From: Calothrix sp. NIES-4105
GTDB taxonomy: Bacteria > Cyanobacteriota > Cyanobacteriia > Cyanobacteriales > Nostocaceae
Length of the DNA: 64,000 nt
Assembly (NCBI RefSeq): GCF_002368415.1
Contig: NZ_AP018290.1
Location: 5,717,614-5,781,613, forward strand
Direction: 5' to 3'
Position numbers and translations under genes: made by a program. Under the pieces are notes generated by a model. The model was not told where the DNA came from and did no database searches. It was given only the letters and a program-made list of their open reading frames with translations. Below are positions 22,731 through 34,469 of this stretch, one piece after another; position 1 is the first letter of the stretch, and every line of letters begins with the position of its first letter.

Positions 22731-25508
22731 GTTTCAATCCCTTAAAGGGATTATTTTAAATTTCAATAGGAGTAAGAGCGCTTCCACGTTGATATAAAGC
22801 CATGTTTCAATCCCTTAAAGGGATTATTTTAAATTTCAATTCTAAAAAGCGAGCAGCATTCATACCACAAGAAAAGTTTCAATCCCTTAAAGGGATTATT
22901 TTAAATTTCAATGCGATTACGAGTTGCGGTATCACCTAAAATGTCTGTTTCAATCCCTTAAAGGGATTATTTTAAATTTCAATTTGAACTGATACCCCTT
23001 GTCCCAATCAGAGTAGGAGTTTCAATCCCTTAAAGGGATTATTTTAAATTTCAATATGTTAGGGCGTCGTGGTAGATTACTACCGTGGGGTTTCAATCCC
23101 TTAAAGGGATTATTTTAAATTTCAATGCGCCAACTGCTGCATGTATTTCATGGGTAGCTGGTGTTTCAATCCCTTAAAGGGATTATTTTAAATTTCAATT
23201 ACATTGGCTGAAAATCCTCTAAGCATAGTAGCCAGTTTCAATTCCTTAAAGGGATTATTTTAAATTTCAATGCAAGCACTGGTTCCTGCTTTGATTGAAA
23301 TTAAGTTTCAATCCCTTAAAGGGATTATTTTAAATTTCAATATGCCACTGTGCCAGCGACAGAAGCGGAGGCTAATCGTTTCAATCCCTTAAAGGGATTA
23401 TTTTAAATTTCAATACAAAAAGCTTTTCATGATAGTATTGGTTCTGCTGTTTCAATCCCTTAAAGGGATTATTTTAAATTTCAATCTAAAACTAATATCA
23501 TGAACTGTTCGGGAGTTTCGTTTCAATCCCTTAAAGGGATTATTTTAAATTTCAATTCTTCACAGTAAAAAAATCCACTCCTGTTACAGAGTGGTTTCAA
23601 TCCCTTAAAGGGATTATTTTAAATTTCAATGAATCAGGATTAAGAGCATAACAAGGATATAAGGTTGTTTCAATCCCTTAAAGGGATTATTTTAAATTTC
23701 AATAGAACTTAGTATTAAGTATGGTATGCAGCAGGAAGGTTTCAATCCCTTAAAGGGATTATTTTAAATTTCAATGTTTTTAATTCTTCATTTGAAAGTG
23801 GGGAAAAAGTTTCAATCCCTTAAAGGGATTATTTTAAATTTCAATGTTCTTTACCAAATCACCAAGGATTGCTGCATCAGAAGTTTCAATCCCTTAAAGG
23901 GATTATTTTAAATTTCAATATGATTTATATGGAGATAGAGGTTTATGAACTTAGGTTTCAATCCCTTAAAGGGATTATTTTAAATTTCAATTCGAATTAG
24001 TTCGTCTATTGATTCAGCTTTTTCAGTTTCAATCCCTTAAAGGGATTATTTTAAATTTCAATGTACCATAATTCGTTACTCGAACTGCACGCTCTTGTTT
24101 CAATCCCTTAAAGGGATTATTTTAAATTTCAATTGAGTGCGGACATTCTAAAACACATTTCGCCCAAGTTTCAATCCCTTAAAGGGATTATTTTAAATTT
24201 CAATGAGTGCAGCTTACAGCAGTGGCAGGATTTATGTAGTTTCAATCCCTTAAAGGGATTATTTTAAATTTCAATTTTAGTATAGTGTTCCCACGTTAGG
24301 CTGTTCGCTGTTTCAATCCCTTAAAGGGATTATTTTAAATTTCAATTGCTTAAACCCAATTTTATACCTCTTATCATTAATGTTTCAATCCCTTAAAGGG
24401 ATTATTTTAAATTTCAATGAAGTATTCCATCCACTGTTGCAATAAAATAATTCCGTTTCAATCCCTTAAAGGGATTATTTTAAATTTCAATAAAATTGAT
24501 TTAGATGCTTGGTGGGATTTGGTAAGTTTCAATCCCTTAAAGGGATTATTTTAAATTTCAATTCAATCTGACCTACGTTGGTGATATTAGTGGCTAGTTT
24601 CAATCCCTTAAAGGGATTATTTTAAATTTCAATCTTGTTCAATGATTATTTCATGCTCGCGTAGATGCGTTTCAATCCCTTAAAGGGATTATTTTAAATT
24701 TCAATTAAATTAGCAAATGAGCTACATCCACCCTATTTGTTTCAATCCCTTAAAGGGATTATTTTAAATTTCAATACCTAGCGCGTCAAGGGCATCAAAT
24801 ATCTCTAGCTTAAATGTTTCAATCCCTTAAAGGGATTATTTTAAATTTCAATTTTCCCAGAGATTCCTTTATATCGCTCTCCTCTTGAGATAACGGGAGT
24901 TTCAATCCCTTAAAGGGATTATTTTAAATTTCAATTGTACCGATTGGGAACTCATCTAGAGGTCATCAAGTGCGTTTCAATCCCTTAAAGGGATTATTTT
25001 AAATTTCAATTAAAGATGTTATGAATGATGATAATGCTGCCGAGAAGTTTCAATCCCTTAAAGGGATTATTTTAAATTTCAATCTGGTTAAAGGTTGAAA
25101 AACTTGCTTTGCTGCAAGTTTCAATCCCTTAAAGGGATTATTTTAAATTTCAATTTACACCATCTTCGTTTATTGGTAAAGTGGTTGGGTTTCAATCCCT
25201 TAAAGGGATTATTTTAAATTTCAATTCGGTTATCGGTTTAATGATGGATGTTGTCATAAAGTTTCAATCCCTTAAAGGGATTATTTTAAATTTCAATACA
25301 TCTATACCTTTACTAGTGAGTTACGCACGATGTTTCAATCCCTTAAAGGGATTATTTTAAATTTCAATCGACCGTAAATAGTGCTAATTGTGTGCAATCC
25401 ATGTTTCAATCCCTTAAAGGGATTATTTTAAATTTCAATAATTCGCCTTCTCGAAGTCAATGAAGACTGCTCTTTCAATCCCTTAAAGGGATTATTTTAA
25501 ATTTCAAT
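22731..25508 (-). CRISPR. CRISPR array 1: 39 repeats of 37 bp, 38 spacers
   Basis: The plus-strand repeat begins GTTTCAATCCCTTAAAGGGA and ends TTTTAAATTTCAAT; the average unit is about 72 bp, so spacers average 35. The complement ends in ATTGAAAC, the usual 8-nt crRNA tag of this repeat type, so transcription is on the minus strand with the leader at the right (25509 onwards). The inner AATCCCTTTAAGGGATT palindrome gives the Cas6 stem. Variants: the repeat near 23234 has ATTCC, and the leader-proximal repeat at 25472 starts with C instead of G. Spacers look non-repetitive. Confidence 0.98.
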
Positions 25509-25785
25509 GGCTCAATGTGGAAGCTTTGCTGTATTTGGTTTTCAAGGTTCTGTACCGCGAACTTAGAGTAATAATAGCGTTTCAGATGTTGAGGTGTCAA
25601 TATGAGCATAGGCTAAAATTGCTGGAATGGTTAATTGATAGGGGTTTCAGAGTTACCGCGAACCTCTGTCAGGCGCCAAATTCTTCAAAGCTTGACTGGA
25701 TAGGCGTTTCGAGGATAAATTGACGTGACGTGAAAAAAACACCAGTAGGTTCGCGGTCATATAGGAAAAATTAGGTAAATGCTAT
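25509..25785 (-). promoter_or_regulatory. CRISPR leader of array 1
   Basis: This flank is strongly similar to the right flank of array 2 (34470-34745): both start GCTCAATGTGG with AGCTTTGCTGTATTTGGTTT close by, and both contain three GCGAACC/GGTTCGCGGT-type boxes at similar spacing. The left flanks of the arrays are unrelated. This marks the right side as the leader carrying the promoter and integration signals, reading on the minus strand into the array. Confidence 0.8.
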
Positions 25786-25928
25786 CTAATTTGTTTGCCT
25801 GCGTACCATTCCCATTCCCATTGGTGTTTTTCTTCCGACTCCTGCGTATAGCGCAAAATCAGCTATTGCGTTTACTTGTTTGATGACTTCTGGTTCAACC
25901 TCTCCTATGATTTTATATGTTACTTGCC
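25786..25928 (-). pseudogene. cas6: Cas6 C-terminal fragment (3' part of split gene)
   Basis: Minus-strand frame ending at 25786 reads QVTYKIIGEVEPEVIKQVNA, then ADFALYAGVGRKTPMGMGMV and RRQTN. This is the Cas6 C-terminus with its Gly-rich RNA-binding loop. It is in register with the N-terminal part at 27997-28680: removing the intervening element would join ...FIGCV to G-QVTYK and give about 275 aa, a normal Cas6 length. It stands directly before the leader of array 1 and reads toward it. As split, neither part should make a complete Cas6. Confidence 0.85.
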
Positions 25929-27996
25929 GGTTCAAAAAATCTCGGAAAATCTGGACTCCTAGACCCACGCACAATCACGGTTCGTTGTACGATTTCCTTC
26001 ACCTGTTTCAAGATGACATTCTAACCGTCCGTTGTTTCGGACTTGCAAACGTTTGTTCACTCGGCACATTTAATCCACAAAGGATTATTACATCCAATGG
26101 CAACCGAATCACCAAATTCAAGGGTATTTTTCAATATACCCGTTGCGTAAGCTAGAAGAGGCTGTTGGCCTAGGCGTAAAGAAAGAGTGTCGGGCTATAC
26201 CTTTCACCCTTTTCGACAGAACGTTCCAGTGTGACCAGACGTGCTTCTTGTGTTCCATACCCTCGTAGGCGGCTCTGGCTGGAACGCCCTCAGAATAATT
26301 CATTGCACGTCGTGCAAGAACTAATGCTGCTGCCGTCCCTGAATTCATCCCATAAAGTGACATAAATTTGGTCATACCTATGAGGGATGAATACGCAGGA
26401 TTAACGGTAATTAATTTAATTCCTAATTTAAAACATCGTGAAGAGAGTAATTCATAAAAGCGGTTATAAGCAAAACCAGAAATCATTCGATTATAACGTT
26501 TATACTTGGCGCCATTATTTAATCGTGCTTTTTTACCATCAAAATCTAATTCTTCAATAACAATGGGGCATTTAAAAGCGAGTGCCAATGTTGTTAATTC
26601 TGTGACAACTTCCGCCAATACTGCCTCGGTTTGATTAGTCGATAAGCTATGCAGGTTAAATTTAATATCACCAAATCGTTTAGGATTACCATCCGCATTT
26701 ACTTTACACCATGCAACCGAGTTGATATTTAAATCTACACCAATACAACCCAACATTACCGAATCAGATGTTATGGGTTGATATACATCAACGGTGATAT
26801 GTGCCGACCAAACACCATATTTACGTTGAATTATCCGGTAAGTTATTGCTTGCCCACACGCCCATGCTGCACGAATTTCCTTATCGCCATAGCCATTTAA
26901 ATTGATTGGTATCTCTACATACTCACCGTATCTTGATTCTAAAGCGTATGGCACACGTATTTTTAAAATATCAAGAGAATCTTTTTCCAGACCAAGTATT
27001 AATTGACATACTTGATTACCGTTTGATTCGTCTTTACTACCAACGAAATAAATTGTTTCTTTATTACCTAAATTGACATGCAATTGTTTTGATTTTAAGT
27101 GTTTTAATTGACACACCATTCGGTGCAACTTGCGCTTTTGATTGTGTAATTTATTTTTTGCACTTTGGTAATATGTACCAGATTCGCGACCAAAAACCCG
27201 TGATGATGCCTCGTCAAATTGTGGTTGATATTTTGATGATATCTTCGCCTTTTTACCTTGTTTTTTCGTAGAATTGTATTTAGCGACTGTTTTTAAATAT
27301 TCAATGTGTTTTTTGACTTTCTTTTCAAGCGTATCTATTGAGGATTTTAATGATTTTATTTTCGATTCTAATGTTTGTATGTGTCGTGCTAGGGAATCTC
27401 TGGCACTTTTTATTTCACCTTCTATAAACGCAATAATACTCGAAGCTTGCCGTTTATTAATTGCATATTTTTTTTGCAATGTTGTATTCAATTCTGACTT
27501 TTTTTGATTTGAAAGTAATCCTTTAAGGCTAAATATTGATGCATATGTTGAAATTGCTGCATAGTCTGCTAGGAACAAACCTGTGTCGGTATTTGTATGT
27601 ATTTGCTTGACGTAGGTTTGTTTTCGCATAATGCATTTATGCACTTTTATATATTAGCTTTATAATTATAATTATTGCATGTTTACTGGAATTTTACTAC
27701 TTAGATAAATTAATAATTATCATCACAATTATATATCAATATTATCCAGTTGATAACCTGTCGTTATTAGTCAGCAGTACCCCAATTTTACGCATTGAAA
27801 ATTAATTGTATAAATCACCTTTTAATAGTACATTTTTAGTCTACTAATTGTAGATTTATTAAAAATAAACGAACATTATCAAGGAAGAGAGTATTGCCCC
27901 AGCGATTAACTAGATAATAACCTCATACATAGATTTTTGAAGATTTTATAACTAATCCTATGAAATCCTATGATTTTGGGTTACTGCTGATAACCC
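25929..27996 (-). mobile_element. IS200/IS605-type element (tnpB only) inside cas6
   Basis: About 2.07 kb between the two cas6 parts, carrying one gene (tnpB, minus strand). The left end begins with a hairpin at 27978-27996 (GGGTTA / TAACCC arms, 7-base loop) and has about 350 bases before tnpB; the right end is about 190 bases. There are no inverted terminal repeats and no target duplication, as expected for single-strand transposition of this family. No tnpA is present, so mobility would depend on a TnpA in trans. Ends are placed to within a few bases from the cas6 reading frame. Confidence 0.8.
26118..27644 (-). CDS. tnpB: TnpB-like RNA-guided nuclease, atypical
   Basis: 508 aa (ATG 27629 is an alternative start). 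Residues about 50-190 are Lys/Glu-rich and coiled-coil-like. The C-terminal RuvC-type domain has the first acidic site in CIGVDLNINSVAW (Asp304) and the second in IVIEELDFDGKK (Glu364/365). The TnpB zinc ribbon (paired CxxC) is absent, and where the third acidic residue is expected the sequence is YGMNSGTAAALVLARRAM, with no Asp. Related cyanobacterial proteins with an AAALVxARR block are known as IS605 OrfB variants. TnpB proteins use an RNA from the element's right end. Here the adjacent guide sequence would be cas6 itself. Nuclease activity is uncertain. Confidence 0.85.
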   Translation of the reverse strand: MHKCIMRKQTYVKQIHTNTDTGLFLADYAAISTYASIFSLKGLLSNQKKSELNTTLQKKYAINKRQASSIIAFIEGEIKSARDSLARHIQTLESKIKSLKSSIDTLEKKVKKHIEYLKTVAKYNSTKKQGKKAKISSKYQPQFDEASSRVFGRESGTYYQSAKNKLHNQKRKLHRMVCQLKHLKSKQLHVNLGNKETIYFVGSKDESNGNQVCQLILGLEKDSLDILKIRVPYALESRYGEYVEIPINLNGYGDKEIRAAWACGQAITYRIIQRKYGVWSAHITVDVYQPITSDSVMLGCIGVDLNINSVAWCKVNADGNPKRFGDIKFNLHSLSTNQTEAVLAEVVTELTTLALAFKCPIVIEELDFDGKKARLNNGAKYKRYNRMISGFAYNRFYELLSSRCFKLGIKLITVNPAYSSLIGMTKFMSLYGMNSGTAAALVLARRAMNYSEGVPARAAYEGMEHKKHVWSHWNVLSKRVKGIARHSFFTPRPTASSSLRNGYIEKYP

Positions 27997-28680
27997 TACA
28001 CAACCGATAAATTTACTGCGGGAGTCACTCGCTATTTCTGTGCGAATGTTAAAAAAGCTCGGAAAAATGCATTCGATTATATCGTTTGATATTTCAATAC
28101 CACTATATTTATTCCAGCGCTGTAATAAACTTTTGAATACTGACTCTTTACTGGGTAATGCTGTATCAAAGCTTCCTTGCCGAAAAGCTGTAGGAGTGGC
28201 AAATGTAAAGTTGATGTTTCGTTCGGCGCCACTTGCTTGTTCATATAATTGGGCGTAAGTACAGGCGTTTGCCCAAGGTTGGCTTGACTGTGGTGTAGCT
28301 AGAATACTAGTAATAAATAAGTCAGCAGAACCTAAATGCCAAGCTTTTTCAGGATTTATATTCAACCAGAGCTTAGTTAGCTTACTAAATAAAGTGTCAT
28401 CAAGTAAAGACAGGCGCCACCAGCAAGGAGTACCAGGTTGTATTGGTTCTTGGTGCTGCCATTGTAGAGAGTTACTTTTAAGTGATGTTTGTCTACAATA
28501 TATTTGTAAAGGGGAAAGCGTAAATGCTTTATCTATGGTTGTATCATGAAGGATATCGCCTAAACTCTTATCTACCGAACTGACAAGGTTGAGAAATAAA
28601 GCATGATAATGTCTGCCAGTTAAAAATTGTGGGTAGATGCTTGACTGAGGTAGTAGGTTAAGGACTAAGCTGTGAGGCAT
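27997..28680 (-). pseudogene. cas6: Cas6 N-terminal fragment (5' part of split gene)
   Basis: From ATG 28680 the frame reads MPHSLVLNLLPQSSIYPQFL, TGRHYHALFLNLVSSVDKSL, with later HLGSADLFITSIL and SKFIGCV. This is the RAMP-fold endoribonuclease Cas6, which cuts CRISPR repeat stems. His residues in the RHYHALF region are candidates for catalysis. At V228 the frame enters the IS left end and stops 12 codons later at 27958. The remaining 47 codons lie at 25786-25928. The insertion removes the C-terminal RNA-binding part, so this copy is probably inactive unless the element excises. Confidence 0.88.
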
Positions 28681-28743
28681 TTGGCTTACAAATCTTAAAT
28701 TTTATAAAATATGATTTGTTATTATGAGTTTACCACATTATTT

Positions 28744-29763
28744 TTACTCAATTCCCTCTAGTAGCTTAGAAACTTGTTCTGGAGCAGGAAGTTTATTTTT
28801 GAGTTCTTGCGGTACAGTAGACACTATTTGATAAGTTGCTACACCAATTGGTTTATTAGACTCTCGAAGCGCATATTCTACAATTGTTTGACTTTTCGAC
28901 TTACAAAGAATAATTCCAATTGATGGATTTTCATCTGGTTGTTTTACTTTGTCATCTAAAGCCGCTAAATAAAACTGCATTTTGCCTATATACTCAGGTA
29001 AAAACTTACCTATCTTAAGTTCTACTGCTACCAAGCATTTTAGAAGCCGATGGTATAATAAAATATCTATAAAATACTCTTCATCATCAATCTCAAGTCG
29101 ATATTGACTACCCATGAAAGCAAACATTCCACCCATTTCTTGTAGAAATGGTTCCACTCTTGCTAGAATTGCTTTTTCTAGCTGGTATTCGCTATGTTCG
29201 TCTGCTAACTCTAAGAAATCGAAAATATACTCATCCTTTACAGCTAACTTCGCTTGATTTCTTATCTCTTGTGAAACAGTCTGCTGAAAATTTGTTTGGT
29301 TAAGTAAAGTTTTTTCATACGTTTGGTTCTCTATTTGGTGGATTAAAACATTTTTTGTCCAACCAAATTTTTTTGTCATTCTAATATAAAATTCTCGTTC
29401 TAAATCATCTTTACACTTTTCTAAAATGACTATATTATGAGTCCAACCAATTTCTCGCACCATTGGTGCGAGTTTTTCATTATTGGCAAAACTTTCATAA
29501 AAAAGCCTCATCCGCCATAGGTTAGCAGCAGAGAATCCACTAATCCCAGGAAACTCAGTTTGTAAGTCTTTCGCTAACTGTTCAACAACTGATTTTCCCC
29601 AGCTATTGCTCTGCTGGCGCCCAACAATTATCTTGCCAATATCCCAATAAAGCGCAATAAGTTCTTTATTTACAGCTTTCAATGCTTCATATTGAGCAGA
29701 CCGAATACGTTGCTTTACTTCTAATAAAAGACTTCCGTATTCTTCAGGGATTGGTTTATTCAT
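28744..29763 (-). CDS. DUF1016/YhcG-type PDDEXK nuclease-domain protein
   Basis: About 339 aa from ATG 29763 (MNKPIPEEYGSLL); a longer frame from 29874 adds a hydrophobic, low-complexity stretch and is rejected. The N-terminal DUF1016_N part (YWDIGKIIVGRQ, FSAANLWRMRLFYE) is followed by the C-terminal PDDEXK nuclease part, with DDEEYFIDILLYH and VAVELKIG (Asp, Glu-x-Lys), then YIGKMQFYLAALDD. Such proteins are linked to recombination, mobile elements and phage defence. It sits between cas6 and array 2 but belongs to no known cas family. Confidence 0.88.
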   Translation of the reverse strand: MNKPIPEEYGSLLLEVKQRIRSAQYEALKAVNKELIALYWDIGKIIVGRQQSNSWGKSVVEQLAKDLQTEFPGISGFSAANLWRMRLFYESFANNEKLAPMVREIGWTHNIVILEKCKDDLEREFYIRMTKKFGWTKNVLIHQIENQTYEKTLLNQTNFQQTVSQEIRNQAKLAVKDEYIFDFLELADEHSEYQLEKAILARVEPFLQEMGGMFAFMGSQYRLEIDDEEYFIDILLYHRLLKCLVAVELKIGKFLPEYIGKMQFYLAALDDKVKQPDENPSIGIILCKSKSQTIVEYALRESNKPIGVATYQIVSTVPQELKNKLPAPEQVSKLLEGIE

Positions 29764-29814
29764 AAAGATGATTAGTAAATATAGTATTGTTATATAGATA
29801 ATTATACTGTGTAG

Positions 29815-29870
29815 TACCTTTAAACAGTTGGGTTCCTTGCCGAAAGCGAGAAACCCGAATTTTAAAGGTA
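29815..29870. repeat. Long inverted repeat beside DUF1016 gene
   Basis: TACCTTTAAACAGTTGGGTT on the left is complementary, with small gaps, to AAACCCGAATTTTAAAGGTA on the right, giving a stable hairpin at the trailer side of array 2. It lies just upstream of the DUF1016 start and could affect its expression. Confidence 0.5.
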
Positions 29871-29972
29871 GCAAAAACTTATCCTACTGACGAGGGGTCA
29901 AGGGGCGCCTCAAACCCGCCAAATACGCGACGACAAGTAGCAAAAACTTATCCTACTGACGAGGGGTCAAGG
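29868..29972. repeat. 36-bp exact direct repeat with 33-bp spacer
   Basis: Two identical 36-base copies (29868-29903 and 29937-29972, beginning GTAGCAAAAACTTATCCTAC) are separated by 33 unique bases. The second is followed by 38 bases up to the first repeat of array 2. Repeat and spacing sizes are CRISPR-like, but the sequence is unrelated to either array repeat and lacks a palindrome. Confidence 0.7.
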
Positions 29973-30010: not shown

Positions 30011-33000
30011 GTTTCAATCCCTAAAAGGGATTTTATAAAGTTTAAACATAATAGTCGGGTAAAGTGCGAAAATCGTCATCAGTTTCAATCCCTAAAAGGG
30101 ATTTTATAAAGTTTAAACAGTCAGCATTGCGCTTGGTGGTCGCTACGAAGTTTCAATCCCTAAAAGGGATTTTATAAAGTTTAAACTGCCCACGCCCTCA
30201 ACTATAAATCTACTTCTAATTGGTTTCAATCCCTAAAAGGAATTTTATAAAGTTTAAACTCTTACGCGAACGTGTAACTGTCCGAAGAATCTCGTTTCAA
30301 TCCCTAAAAGGAATTTTATAAAGTTTAAACAATGTGTTGAAGCGGGGGTGATAGGCTGTAAAGGTAGTTTCAATCCCTAAAAGGAATTTTATAAAGTTTA
30401 AACATTGTTGATGGTAAAGTTGAGTCAGTTAAAAGAGAGTTTGTTTCAATCCCTAAAAGGGATTTTATAAAGTTTAAACCCGATAAGCCATTTTTACTTC
30501 AGCCTCATTTGCTGTTTCAATCCCTAAAAGGGATTTTATAAAGTTTAAACTATAGTAGTGTTCAGTTGAGCAAGTTAATTGCTTGTTTCAATCCCTAAAA
30601 GGGATTTTATAAAGTTTAAACGATATCCCAGCGCGAAGAATCTATCATATCCAGTAGTTTCAATCCCTAAAAGGGATTTTATAAAGTTTAAACTGTGGCG
30701 CCACTACTTCAGTTTTAGATTCTGTTTTGTTTCAATCCCTAAAAGGGATTTTATAAAGTTTAAACATAATGAGTCTTGATTATGAAGGCTAATTTCTGAG
30801 TTTCAATCCCTAAAAGGGATTTTATAAAGTTTAAACCATAGACGATAAAATGAGTTACATGCCCGATAATGTGTTTCAATCCCTAAAAGGGATTTTATAA
30901 AGTTTAAACTTCTTGACTAGCGCCAATTAAAACAGCGCGTCCAGCATGTTTCAATCCCTAAAAGGGATTTTATAAAGTTTAAACCTCGCAGCATTGTTAA
31001 AAACTAAAGCGTTTGCAGTTTCAATCCCTAAAAGGGATTTTATAAAGTTTAAACTCAATTGGCAGTTTCTTTACCAATTTATTTAGAGTTTCAATCCCTA
31101 AAAGGGATTTTATAAAGTTTAAACTACATTACGCACTCTTAAGAGAGTCGGCGCATAGCGTTTCAATCCCTAAAAGGGATTTTATAAAGTTTAAACCTCA
31201 CTTATTTAAATACTGCACTACTTCGCTCCACAGGTTTCAATCCCTAAAAGGGATTTTATAAAGTTTAAACTACTATTAAATGGCGAGTATGGACGAGCTA
31301 CAAAGTTTCAATCCCTAAAAGGGATTTTATAAAGTTTAAACTGAACTACGATATAGCGAGTCGATGATAATTTTAAGTTTCAATCCCTAAAAGGGATTTT
31401 ATAAAGTTTAAACACTTTGATCCAAGGTGAGCGCAATCCTTACAGATACGTTTCAATCCCTAAAAGGGATTTTATAAAGTTTAAACTCTAAATATCGCTT
31501 GGCACGTTGCCTATGAATTGCAAAGTTTCAATCCCTAAAAGGGATTTTATAAAGTTTAAACGCATCGGTAGAATTAGCTCCTTACCCCAAACTTCATGTT
31601 TCAATCCCTAAAAGGGATTTTATAAAGTTTAAACTCATGTACGAACTTGTTTTAAGCATGTCCAAGAAAAGTTTCAATCCCTAAAAGGGATTTTATAAAG
31701 TTTAAACTAAACACACCCTCTGTGTACAGTGCCAAGCTACCGTTTCAATCCCTAAAAGGGATTTTATAAAGTTTAAACTATTAAGCAACTTGAGTTACTC
31801 GCTACCCTACTCGTTTCAATCCCTAAAAGGGATTTTATAAAGTTTAAACTACGATGATTATCTAACGCACAAAGATAAAGCGAGTTTCAATCCCTAAAAG
31901 GGATTTTATAAAGTTTAAACGATACCAAACTTGCAGATGATATTGGAATGTACGTTTCAATCCCTAAAAGGGATTTTATAAAGTTTAAACTTGGATGGTA
32001 CAAATCAGCAGAAACATGGGATAATAGCGATGTTTCAATCCCTAAAAGGGATTTTATAAAGTTTAAACGTAATTACTTATTTAGGGAGATTGATTGTGTT
32101 TTCGTTTCAATCCCTAAAAGGGATTTTATAAAGTTTAAACTTCAAATGCTTTAGGCAATGAAAAGCAAGCAACTATTGTTTCAATCCCTAAAAGGGATTT
32201 TATAAAGTTTAAACCTATTTTTAATAAAGGACTTCATACAAACAGCTGCGTTTCAATCCCTAAAAGGGATTTTATAAAGTTTAAACTCACAAGTGCATGA
32301 TTATCCTGTAGATGTACATAAAGTTTCAATCCCTAAAAGGGATTTTATAAAGTTTAAACATGTCCTTGCCTTGATTTTAAGTCAGTGGCGCCAGGGTTTC
32401 AATCCCTAAAAGGGATTTTATAAAGTTTAAACTTAGCTGCATTATTGAGTCTTGTTAACGCCTCAGCAAGTTTCAATCCCTAAAAGGGATTTTATAAAGT
32501 TTAAACTACTAACCAGCCAAGTACTGGAATGTATTTTACAAGTTTCAATCCCTAAAAGGGATTTTATAAAGTTTAAACGAGCCATCATTACCGTCAATGC
32601 CTCCTTCTATTGAATTAGTGTTTCAATCCCTAAAAGGGATTTTATAAAGTTTAAACTCGAAGCGGAACAAGCGCGCAAAAAAGTGATTGAAGTTTCAATC
32701 CCTAAAAGGGATTTTATAAAGTTTAAACCTGTGAAAATGTATTTTGTTTCGGGTGCCTCTAAGTTTCAATCCCTAAAAGGGATTTTATAAAGTTTAAACG
32801 TACTACTGCATTCACTTTGATAGCCCAATAGGGTTTCAATCCCTAAAAGGGATTTTATAAAGTTTAAACTATTTCTGAATCAAATCCCTATTGCTCTGCT
32901 TAAGTGTTTCAATCCCTAAAAGGGATTTTATAAAGTTTAAACGCTATCAAGACAGCGAACAGTTCAAGCAGTAAAAGTTTCAATCCCTAAAAGGGATTTT

Positions 33001-34469
33001 ATAAAGTTTAAACGCAAGCGGATACGATTCTAGAGTACTTAGTTAAGCGTTTCAATCCCTAAAAGGGATTTTATAAAGTTTAAACACTTACTCAATTTTC
33101 TTGCTGACAATCATCATGAGTTTCAATCCCTAAAAGGGATTTTATAAAGTTTAAACATGGTAAGAAAAAACATAAGCCTGTAAAAGTTGGTTTCAATCCC
33201 TAAAAGGGATTTTATAAAGTTTAAACACTTGCAAAAGAAGCGCGATTTACTAACATTAAGTTTCAATCCCTAAAAGGGATTTTATAAAGTTTAAACAAAA
33301 TTTACGTAAGGGGTAATTAATGCCTTACTTTGTTTCAATCCCTAAAAGGGATTTTATAAAGTTTAAACGAGGTTGCATTAGTCAATTCAAAACGTGGTAA
33401 AGTTTCAATCCCTAAAAGGGATTTTATAAAGTTTAAACCCTGTAATCATGCTGTTCTTCCCTACGTTGTACTTGTTTCAATCCCTAAAAGGGATTTTATA
33501 AAGTTTAAACTAGAGCTTCTATGTCATTAATGTATTGTGTTAGTTCATGCTGTTCTTCCCTACGTTGTACTTGTTTCAATCCCTAAAAGGGATTTTATAA
33601 AGTTTAAACATATCAAAGAATATATAGGGCAGGGTATAATGTGTTTCAATCCCTAAAAGGGATTTTATAAAGTTTAAACTCTCTTGCCAGAGATATCAAG
33701 CAAGGTAAAAAATTGTTTCAATCCCTAAAAGGGATTTTATAAAGTTTAAACATTATCAGCAAGCGGCTCTAAAGTTATGGTCGTAAGTTTCAATCCCTAA
33801 AAGGGATTTTATAAAGTTTAAACTCCAGCAACTTTAATGTCAGAATCCACCACATTAGTTTCAATCCCTAAAAGGGATTTTATAAAGTTTAAACATTGTT
33901 TATATCAAAAAACACAAAAATTTTGCTTGAAGTTTCAATCCCTAAAAGGGATTTTATAAAGTTTAAACACCAATTTCACCGCGCGGACCAGTTTTACCTA
34001 TCGGTTTCAATCCCTAAAAGGGATTTTATAAAGTTTAAACGTTACTGCTTTGTTACCTCAGTTGTTTGAGCCAAGCGTTTCAATCCCTAAAAGGGATTTT
34101 ATAAAGTTTAAACTTCTTACATCTTGTCAAGCAATTATTTAAAAAAATAGTTTCAATCCCTAAAAGGGATTTTATAAAGTTTAAACTATGTGGAGCTACT
34201 TCAGTAGCCATCCTTGATGGAGTTTCAATCCCTAAAAGGGATTTTATAAAGTTTAAACGCAACAATAACATCTTATCCCGTAATAGCTTGGAGTTTCAAT
34301 CCCTAAAAGGGATTTTATAAAGTTTAAACTTAATTTCACTCAACTTAGTACAGTCGCTAGTTGTTTCAATCCCTAAAAGGGATTTTATAAAGTTTAAACT
34401 AGTGGACGTAGTGATATTGCTCCAGCTTCTCGGTTTCAATCCCTAAAAGGGATTTTATAAAGTTTAAAC
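30011..34469 (-). CRISPR. CRISPR array 2: 62 repeats of 37 bp, 61 spacers
   Basis: The repeat begins GTTTCAATCCCTAAAAGGGA and ends TTATAAAGTTTAAAC on the plus strand; the average unit is about 72.5 bp. The complement ends ATTGAAAC, so it is transcribed on the minus strand from the leader at 34470. Three consecutive repeats near the trailer end (about 30222, 30294, 30366) carry AAGGAATTTT instead of AAGGGATTTT, consistent with old, distal units. One spacer (33511-33572) is 62 bases and chimeric. The first 16 bases of the repeat match array 1 almost exactly while the rest differs. Confidence 0.98.

Follow-up and report, generated by a model that had tools for sequence, protein, structure and literature searches.

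In Calothrix sp. NIES-4105, a cas6 gene flanked by two large CRISPR arrays is broken up by an insert that carries a tnpB-like gene. This raises the questions if the two halves are really one gene, to which family the insert belongs, and what the encoded TnpB could still do at the site it occupies. We analysed a window of 64,000 nucleotides around this locus (C1:5717614-5781613 of the 12,037,678-base genome, which is in 8 contigs); positions given without a contig refer to the window, and its features are compiled in Table 1.

Table 1. Features of the interrupted cas6 locus and its surroundings (window positions)
Feature	Position	Strand	Remarks
cas6, N-terminal part	27994..28680	-	228 codons plus target GGG
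cas6, C-terminal part	25786..25926	-	46 codons plus stop; carries Gly-rich loop GVGRKTPMGMGMV
IS607-like tnpB-only element	25927..27993	-	2067 bp net; GG at both junctions leaves an ambiguity of up to 2 bp
Left end GGGTTATCAGCAGTAACCC	27978..27996	-	target GGG plus hairpin-like palindrome
Left-end direct repeat TCATAGGAT, two copies	27955..27973	-	10 bp apart; read by eye, no statistic
tnpB-like ORF	26118..27644	-	508 aa
Conserved 3' region	25927..26086	-	putative guide RNA (reRNA/omega RNA) scaffold
Right-end motifs TCTCGGAAA / TCTGGACTC	25940..25958	+	10 bp apart; read by eye, no statistic
Predicted guide	25907..25926	-	first 20 nt of the cas6 3' part, CAAGTAACATATAAAATC..
CRISPR array 1	22731..25508	-	39 repeats; begins 3' of cas6
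CRISPR array 2	30011..34469	-	62 repeats
YhcG/DUF1016 PDDEXK nuclease gene	28744..29874	-	adjoins cas6

The N- and C-terminal domains of this Cas6 do not share one ORF but are split by the element. The N-terminal part matches PF19308 (E 1.9e-76) and the start of PF10040, and its ORF (28680-27958) runs for 11 codons beyond the cas6 part before it meets a stop at 27958; the C-terminal part matches the end of PF10040. If the target GGG is included a single time, the halves add up to 228 + 1 + 46 = 275 aa and join in frame, restoring the ORF seen in intact relatives. The best named records for this cas6 are those of Calothrix sp. PCC 7716, HK-06, FI2-JRJ7 and PCC 7103. Relative to the PCC 7716 orthologue, 626 of 684 nt of the N-terminal and 130 of 141 nt of the C-terminal part are identical, and neither half contains a frameshift or a stop, which suggests that the insertion is young. 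That the halves stem from two different cas6 genes, or were brought together by an assembly artefact, is almost certainly wrong: the genome does contain a second cas6, but its product is only 77% identical to the N-terminal part, whereas both halves match one and the same orthologue. A YhcG/DUF1016 gene lies beside this cas6 also in two relatives, among those for which ORFs were listed.

We searched six other genomes of the genus (G001-G006) for this cas6. Five of them (G002-G006) have the gene with an uninterrupted site, at 89-92% DNA identity, and the search of G001 gave no match to it. The insertion of a tnpB-only element into a single cas6, as proposed in the first-pass annotation, is thereby confirmed. 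The 275-aa ORF is intact in four of the five relatives; the cas6 of G003 (L068) has a stop after 106 aa, which is an independent loss. The empty junction reads GGTTGTGT(A/T)-GGG-CA(A/G)GT in these five genomes (short form GT(A/T)-GGG-CA(A/G)G), and the joined flanks of the window differ from it by the missing GGG alone. Compared with this site the insertion is exact, and the annotated absence of a target duplication holds. The net insert measures 2067 bp, with its boundaries corrected to those of Table 1. A second pair of filled and empty sites, for the copy L220 of G002, again lacks a target duplication. Its empty counterpart in the window's own genome has TTTAGGGG before and CAAGAGG after the junction; of the four empty loci examined for L220 one has GGG, and the other three, from other species, have CAG instead.

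The split would destroy this cas6, since the C-terminal Gly-rich loop is separated from the rest of the protein. It had been assumed that the interrupted gene is the only cas gene present and that the arrays would need another Cas6 in trans. The second part was to the point; the first does not extend to the genome, which encodes an intact Cas6 paralogue of 280 aa; its gene belongs to a complete type I operon located at C1:3.75 Mb. Two further Cas6-like ORFs, at C1:9.13 and 5.42 Mb, show 35-36% identity over parts. In the 3.75-Mb operon, Cas3, Cas4, Cas1 and Cas2 score over their NCBIfam cut-offs; the three effectors, for which no Pfam or NCBIfam model matched, correspond to Cas8b, Cas7b and Cas5b (type I-B) in PADLOC. 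A type I-D assignment was considered as well, given a Cas1 above the I-D Cas1 cut-off and Cas3 and Cas6 best matching I-D models (PADLOC), but the effectors match I-B; with labels thus mixed we call the operon a complete type I system. Repeats of the operon array are identical to those of array 1 at 32-33 of 37 positions and to those of array 2 at 27 of 37. The operon Cas6 may take over crRNA processing for both arrays of the window. Three of the five relatives, namely G003, G004 and G006, have a second cas6 at a distance of about 6-7 kb to the one studied here, and in PCC 7103 cas1 and cas2 (names by reading) are found upstream of it; from this the cas6-array block of the window seems to have been split off from the operon in this genome. 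The insertion of an IS into such a secondary cas6 is an ordinary event.

The spacers gave little further information. We compared 98 of the 99 spacers with all sequences collected, hits at 22.7-34.5 kb of the window being filtered out. The strong matches were copies of the window's own array stretch, and one spacer was 93% like a stretch in the array of the other locus. The remaining matches were of 15-19 bases, one of them (15 bases, E 0.027) in the element copy L026/L052; none of the 98 spacers matched the window's own element (L005, L050, L196).

Other copies in this genome have the same outer ends as the insert. GGG directly precedes the exact left end TTATCAGCAGTAAC in 8 of 8 cases in this genome, and all 16 right ends listed, which were selected for reaching the end of the query, terminate in CGG. 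Five long copies have in common either both ends or just the right one; those outside the window lie at C1:6.48, 6.58, 6.16 and 4.11 Mb and show 80-92% DNA identity to it, with no left end found for the 6.16-Mb copy. Remnants consisting of a left end or a right end only are present as well. Of the relatives, G004 holds a single long copy and G002 four, three of which, at separate places, show 0-1 difference in 2058 positions; this means that the element moved recently. The left-end pattern was absent from the viral contigs searched.

The first-pass annotation had placed the insert in the IS200/IS605 group. Passages of PMC6188088 describe IS607 elements (IS607, IS1535, ISXfa1) as having GG ends, inserting at GG without duplication and carrying short directly repeated motifs at their ends. 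The insert has in common with them GG at both junctions with the host, GG in the empty cas6 site and the lack of a target duplication. It also has short direct repeats near its ends, those of the right end being related to the left-end repeat in inverted orientation, as read by eye and with no statistic; the left-end TCATAGGAT repeats are likely to be serine-transposase sites. GGG is in addition the depleted TAM of ISXfa1, an IS607 TnpB for which part of the text of PMC10711439 reports that the nucleotide flanking on the right forms part of the RNA scaffold. On its own GGG is not decisive for IS607, since another IS607 TnpB, that of ISFba1, is given a 5'-AGGAG TAM in the portion of PMC11061315 that deals with it. 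Judged by its sequence features, the insert appears IS607-like, and IS200/IS605 is the less likely label. We regard it as unlikely that the insert is an IS1341-like tnpB-only element which a Y1 TnpA inserted 3' of GGG and whose left tip forms a hairpin. Y1 elements, too, have a fixed motif at one side and cause no duplication, there is a palindrome at the left tip, and the genome holds 23 Y1 matches. Yet the right junction is also GG in the copies listed (rows selected for reaching the end), of 17 listed left ends 9 do not keep the outer CCC of the stem, and motifs of about 9 bp repeated at 10-bp spacing at both ends are the IS607 pattern in the relevant section of PMC6188088.

The tnpB-like gene is the only long ORF of the element, which contains neither a serine-recombinase TnpA nor a Y1 TnpA; lacking a TnpA, it is filed as IS607-like and not as a full member of IS607. 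The genome has 21 IS607 TnpA matches, 13 of them over the cut-off. Scanning 20 of these loci (including the 13) for the left end (17 bp, at most 4 mismatches allowed) tied none to the ends of our element; similarity at three of the 20 was weak (3-4 mismatches). We infer the helper, because no IS607 TnpA of the genome could be linked to these ends: very likely, the serine transposase of another IS607 element moved the element in trans. An IS607 element at C1:5789450 was dismissed as helper, since the left end adjoining it is part of a different remnant and the region upstream of the TnpA of this IS607 element shows only weak similarity. A group I or II intron, or another known RNA, in the insert was considered too, but Rfam detected only CRISPR repeats at gathering scores in the whole window. 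A permissive scan of 25400-29000 yielded CRISPR models together with a single miRNA model of low score, which we regard as a chance match.

If the element works like its IS607 counterparts, its right end would give rise to a structured RNA with the immediately adjoining cas6 sequence as its guide. Identity among seven copies is 85.6% over the final 160 nt, compared with 68.5% at the third codon position and 58.4% in the non-coding part on the 5' side. The final 160 nt are barely more conserved than the whole coding part (85.6 versus 82.7%), and in some copies (L052, L053) the tnpB frame extends into this region. In a consensus structure from nine distinct sequences, 98.0% of the cells are paired, 8 cells are changed on both sides and the covariation score is 0.171; none of 500 shuffles reached any of these three values. 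Compensated changes occur at two pairs of helix 3. These are the only pairs changed on both sides, a number that 197 of the 500 shuffles reach, and further pair types in the region are not above shuffles (reached by 500 of 500). Folding of the single RNA is no better than that of shuffled sequences (z 0.68), and in the window copy one conserved closing pair is broken. Taken together, this points to the 3' region as a probable guide-RNA scaffold, which would be expressed from the right end.

By analogy with the IS607 TnpB treated in parts of PMC10711439, the guide is predicted to be the 20 nt of Table 1. Sequence like CAAGTAACATATAAAATC follows GGG at the uninterrupted site. In the genome of the window, a search for GGG plus guide with up to three mismatches gave one match, the right junction of the element itself, which has CGG in place of GGG. 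The interrupted copy thus lacks a TAM, and at this threshold the paralogous cas6 is no target. The earlier expectation that the guide would match cas6 is valid for the uninterrupted site, with no further target in this genome at up to three mismatches. The accompanying picture of a direct collision between two RNA-guided systems goes too far, because a TnpB guide taken from flanking DNA is ordinary for such elements.

What was not expected lies in the protein itself. RuvC residues D304 and E364 are present, but the third RuvC position is occupied by Gly436, so that the D-E-D triad reads D-E-G. The protein passes TIGR01766 (41.8 versus a cut-off of 32), while its match to NF040570 (44.5 bits) stays under the cut-off of 100. 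A CxxC zinc ribbon between RuvC-II and RuvC-III was found in no member of this TnpB group. Its absence is not decisive, since D-bearing sisters and two other TnpBs of the genome (L040, L047) lack it as well. In a MAFFT alignment, residue 436 shares its column with the third RuvC Asp of the genome's other TnpBs, although the hhalign support of this alignment is weak (probability 37%, E 0.00035). All eight distinct proteins of the clade have Gly here. Outside the clade, the 22 zinc-less rows covering this site, after removal of a duplicate and a misaligned fragment, have Asp in 16 cases, His in 2, Gly in 3 and Ala in 1, the Gly and Ala rows being L061-L064. In a plasmid collection, 64 of 72,556 records match this TnpB, all with less than 60% identity; five homologues picked from them have Asp (one) or His (four). 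The clade is supported at 100/100, and its sister is the D-bearing L055 on a long branch, the tree being used for its topology alone. A TnpB match with E <= 0.001 was found in 10 of 292 sampled cyanobacterial genomes, the own genome included, with five first-look candidates scored per genome.

Within the clade, dN/dS is 0.09-0.21 in 28 pairs, with the exception of one very close pair (0.43), and 0.05-0.21 for the RuvC part. With values of about 0.1 despite Gly436, loss of the third carboxylate thus coexists with selection on this TnpB. Because of the Gly at the third RuvC position we consider the TnpBs of the clade probably cleavage-defective, and the notion that intact cas6 would be cut is doubtful. 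It is quite conceivable, though not what we expect, that the protein still cleaves with D/E369 or N434/S435 as third metal ligand and acts in homing by cutting uninterrupted cas6 on other copies of the chromosome. Residue 369, which could compensate, is acidic in 8 of 8 clade proteins and in 2 of the 12 D-bearing rows compared (chosen for carrying Asp), and the low dN/dS across the RuvC part and the recent movement of the element are in line with such an activity. What speaks against it is the uniform Gly436 of the clade, compared with the prevailing Asp of the zinc-less rows outside and with Asp or His in all five plasmid homologues looked at.

A decaying relic, with the split of cas6 as a dead end and no RNA-guided activity, is quite unlikely. 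The broken RNA pair of the window copy would fit such a relic, as would a TnpB frame of 508 aa here and in L051, compared with 519-562 aa in the six other distinct clade proteins. It is at odds, however, with the open frames and purifying selection of the long copies, the near-identity of the three copies in the relative, and cas6 halves free of frameshifts and stops.

A fold model of the protein was weak (pLDDT 69, pTM 0.48) and matched Cas12f first, then also Cas12k and RuvC. We make no claim that Cas12k is the closest relative, as Cas12f outranks it and the model is weak. Two matches of the sequence profile to known structures (E 0.12 and 0.3) were taken as chance, and Pfam matches to ApoO, prefoldin and the like as coiled-coil noise. 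Among the literature matches listed, mostly non-subscription papers, there was no report of a tnpB insertion in cas6 or of a zinc-less cyanobacterial TnpB.

We therefore favour, with a probability of roughly 0.8, the explanation that an IS607-like element moved in trans split a secondary cas6, and that its right-end RNA guides a TnpB which is probably non-cutting. A non-autonomous element consisting of left end, tnpB-like gene, guide-RNA region and right end would have jumped into the GGG of cas6. TnpB and its RNA would then recognise GGG plus guide in uninterrupted cas6, either after excision or on other copies of the chromosome; excision by a serine TnpA, as envisaged for IS607, should leave the joint GTAGGGCAAG. 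The interrupted copy would be spared, as its junction is CGG. Recognition would probably amount to binding rather than cutting, given the Gly at the third RuvC position of the clade. Possible but rather doubtful is the more far-reaching proposal that this still-mobile IS607-like clade keeps, under purifying selection, a non-cutting TnpB as an RNA-guided binder of the uninterrupted site.

Several known systems invite comparison. IS1341-like elements are tnpB-only elements of the IS200/IS605 group; the element of the window resembles them in having tnpB alone between two ends, whereas its target and ends are closer to IS607. TldRs are relatives of TnpB that act as RNA-guided transcription factors. 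Like these, the TnpB described here is predicted to be non-cleaving and kept by selection; unlike them, it still resides in a recently mobile element, with a guide set by the insertion site. The likeness to IS607 extends to a TnpB with a right-end RNA, here a predicted one, and to the GGG that serves as ISXfa1 TAM in the pertinent text of PMC10711439; the window element differs in lacking tnpA, and its TnpB in lacking both the zinc ribbon and the third RuvC carboxylate. Cas12m2 (type V-M) is, in the sections of PMC10442227 concerned, a compact effector with an altered RuvC triad (HDD) that binds without cutting, but it is a CRISPR effector with a crRNA, and the triad of our TnpB is D-E-G. The interrupted Cas6 itself resembles those of cyanobacterial type I operons, as seen from its identity to the intact one of this genome, and differs from them as a secondary copy beside arrays with no other cas gene adjoining.

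The insertion is ordinary in itself, cas6 being one of several in this genome. What is not ordinary, and was not expected, is the TnpB clade; what deserves a test is that an element which still moves carries a TnpB that has probably lost cleavage. In the current view, as put forward in part of PMC11870625, TnpB cuts element-free sites and thereby prevents loss of its own element and promotes its spread in the population. Recently moved copies with an incomplete RuvC triad would show that binding under RNA guidance is by itself enough to benefit a transposon. D-bearing relatives of the clade in the same genome make a matched comparison possible. Should the protein act as a binder, the empty allele, here intact cas6, would be occupied or silenced instead of cut, and the clade may represent a step between homing TnpBs and the non-cutting TldR, Cas12k and Cas12m.

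The left end of the window's IS607-like, tnpB-only element, GGGTTATCAGCAGTAAC, was also found at L059:1009-1108, a locus of a TnpB relative (39% identical) that carries Asp at the third RuvC position, where the clade of the window element has Gly (Gly436). These ends are therefore common to Asp-bearing and Gly-bearing elements. Four further zinc-less TnpB-like proteins of the same genome, outside this clade (L061-L064; three near-copies, two of them on C1 and one on C3, and one distant protein), have the third RuvC Asp replaced by Gly or Ala. In four distant plasmid homologues of the zinc-less TnpB group to which the window's protein belongs (L264-L267), this Asp is changed to His. RuvC and Cas9 have a His at the third RuvC position.

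For the complete type I operon elsewhere on the chromosome, the effector genes (L038:5700-9956) matched PADLOC type I-B models only, and its Cas1 passes the I-D model; the operon is a cyanobacterial type I system with mixed labelling. Within the array beside this operon, a stretch of 29 bases (L029:5906-5934) is 93% identical to spacer 40 of array 2 in the window, and the two are perhaps spacers from a single source.

Gene adjoining the split cas6 (window coordinates)
Feature	Position	Context
YhcG/DUF1016 PDDEXK nuclease gene	28744-29874	directly upstream of split cas6, in the CRISPR region

Such a nuclease gene likewise lies directly upstream of cas6 in the two Calothrix relatives with listed ORFs (L095 and L098). 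In one relative, Calothrix sp. PCC 7716, the intact cas6 is followed about 2 kb downstream by an additional 3' piece of the gene (L095:7497-7793).

The orthologous cas6 of another genome of the genus (G003, L068:1525-2354) is free of the insertion and has a reading frame that is broken. The secondary cas6 has therefore been lost at least twice within the genus.
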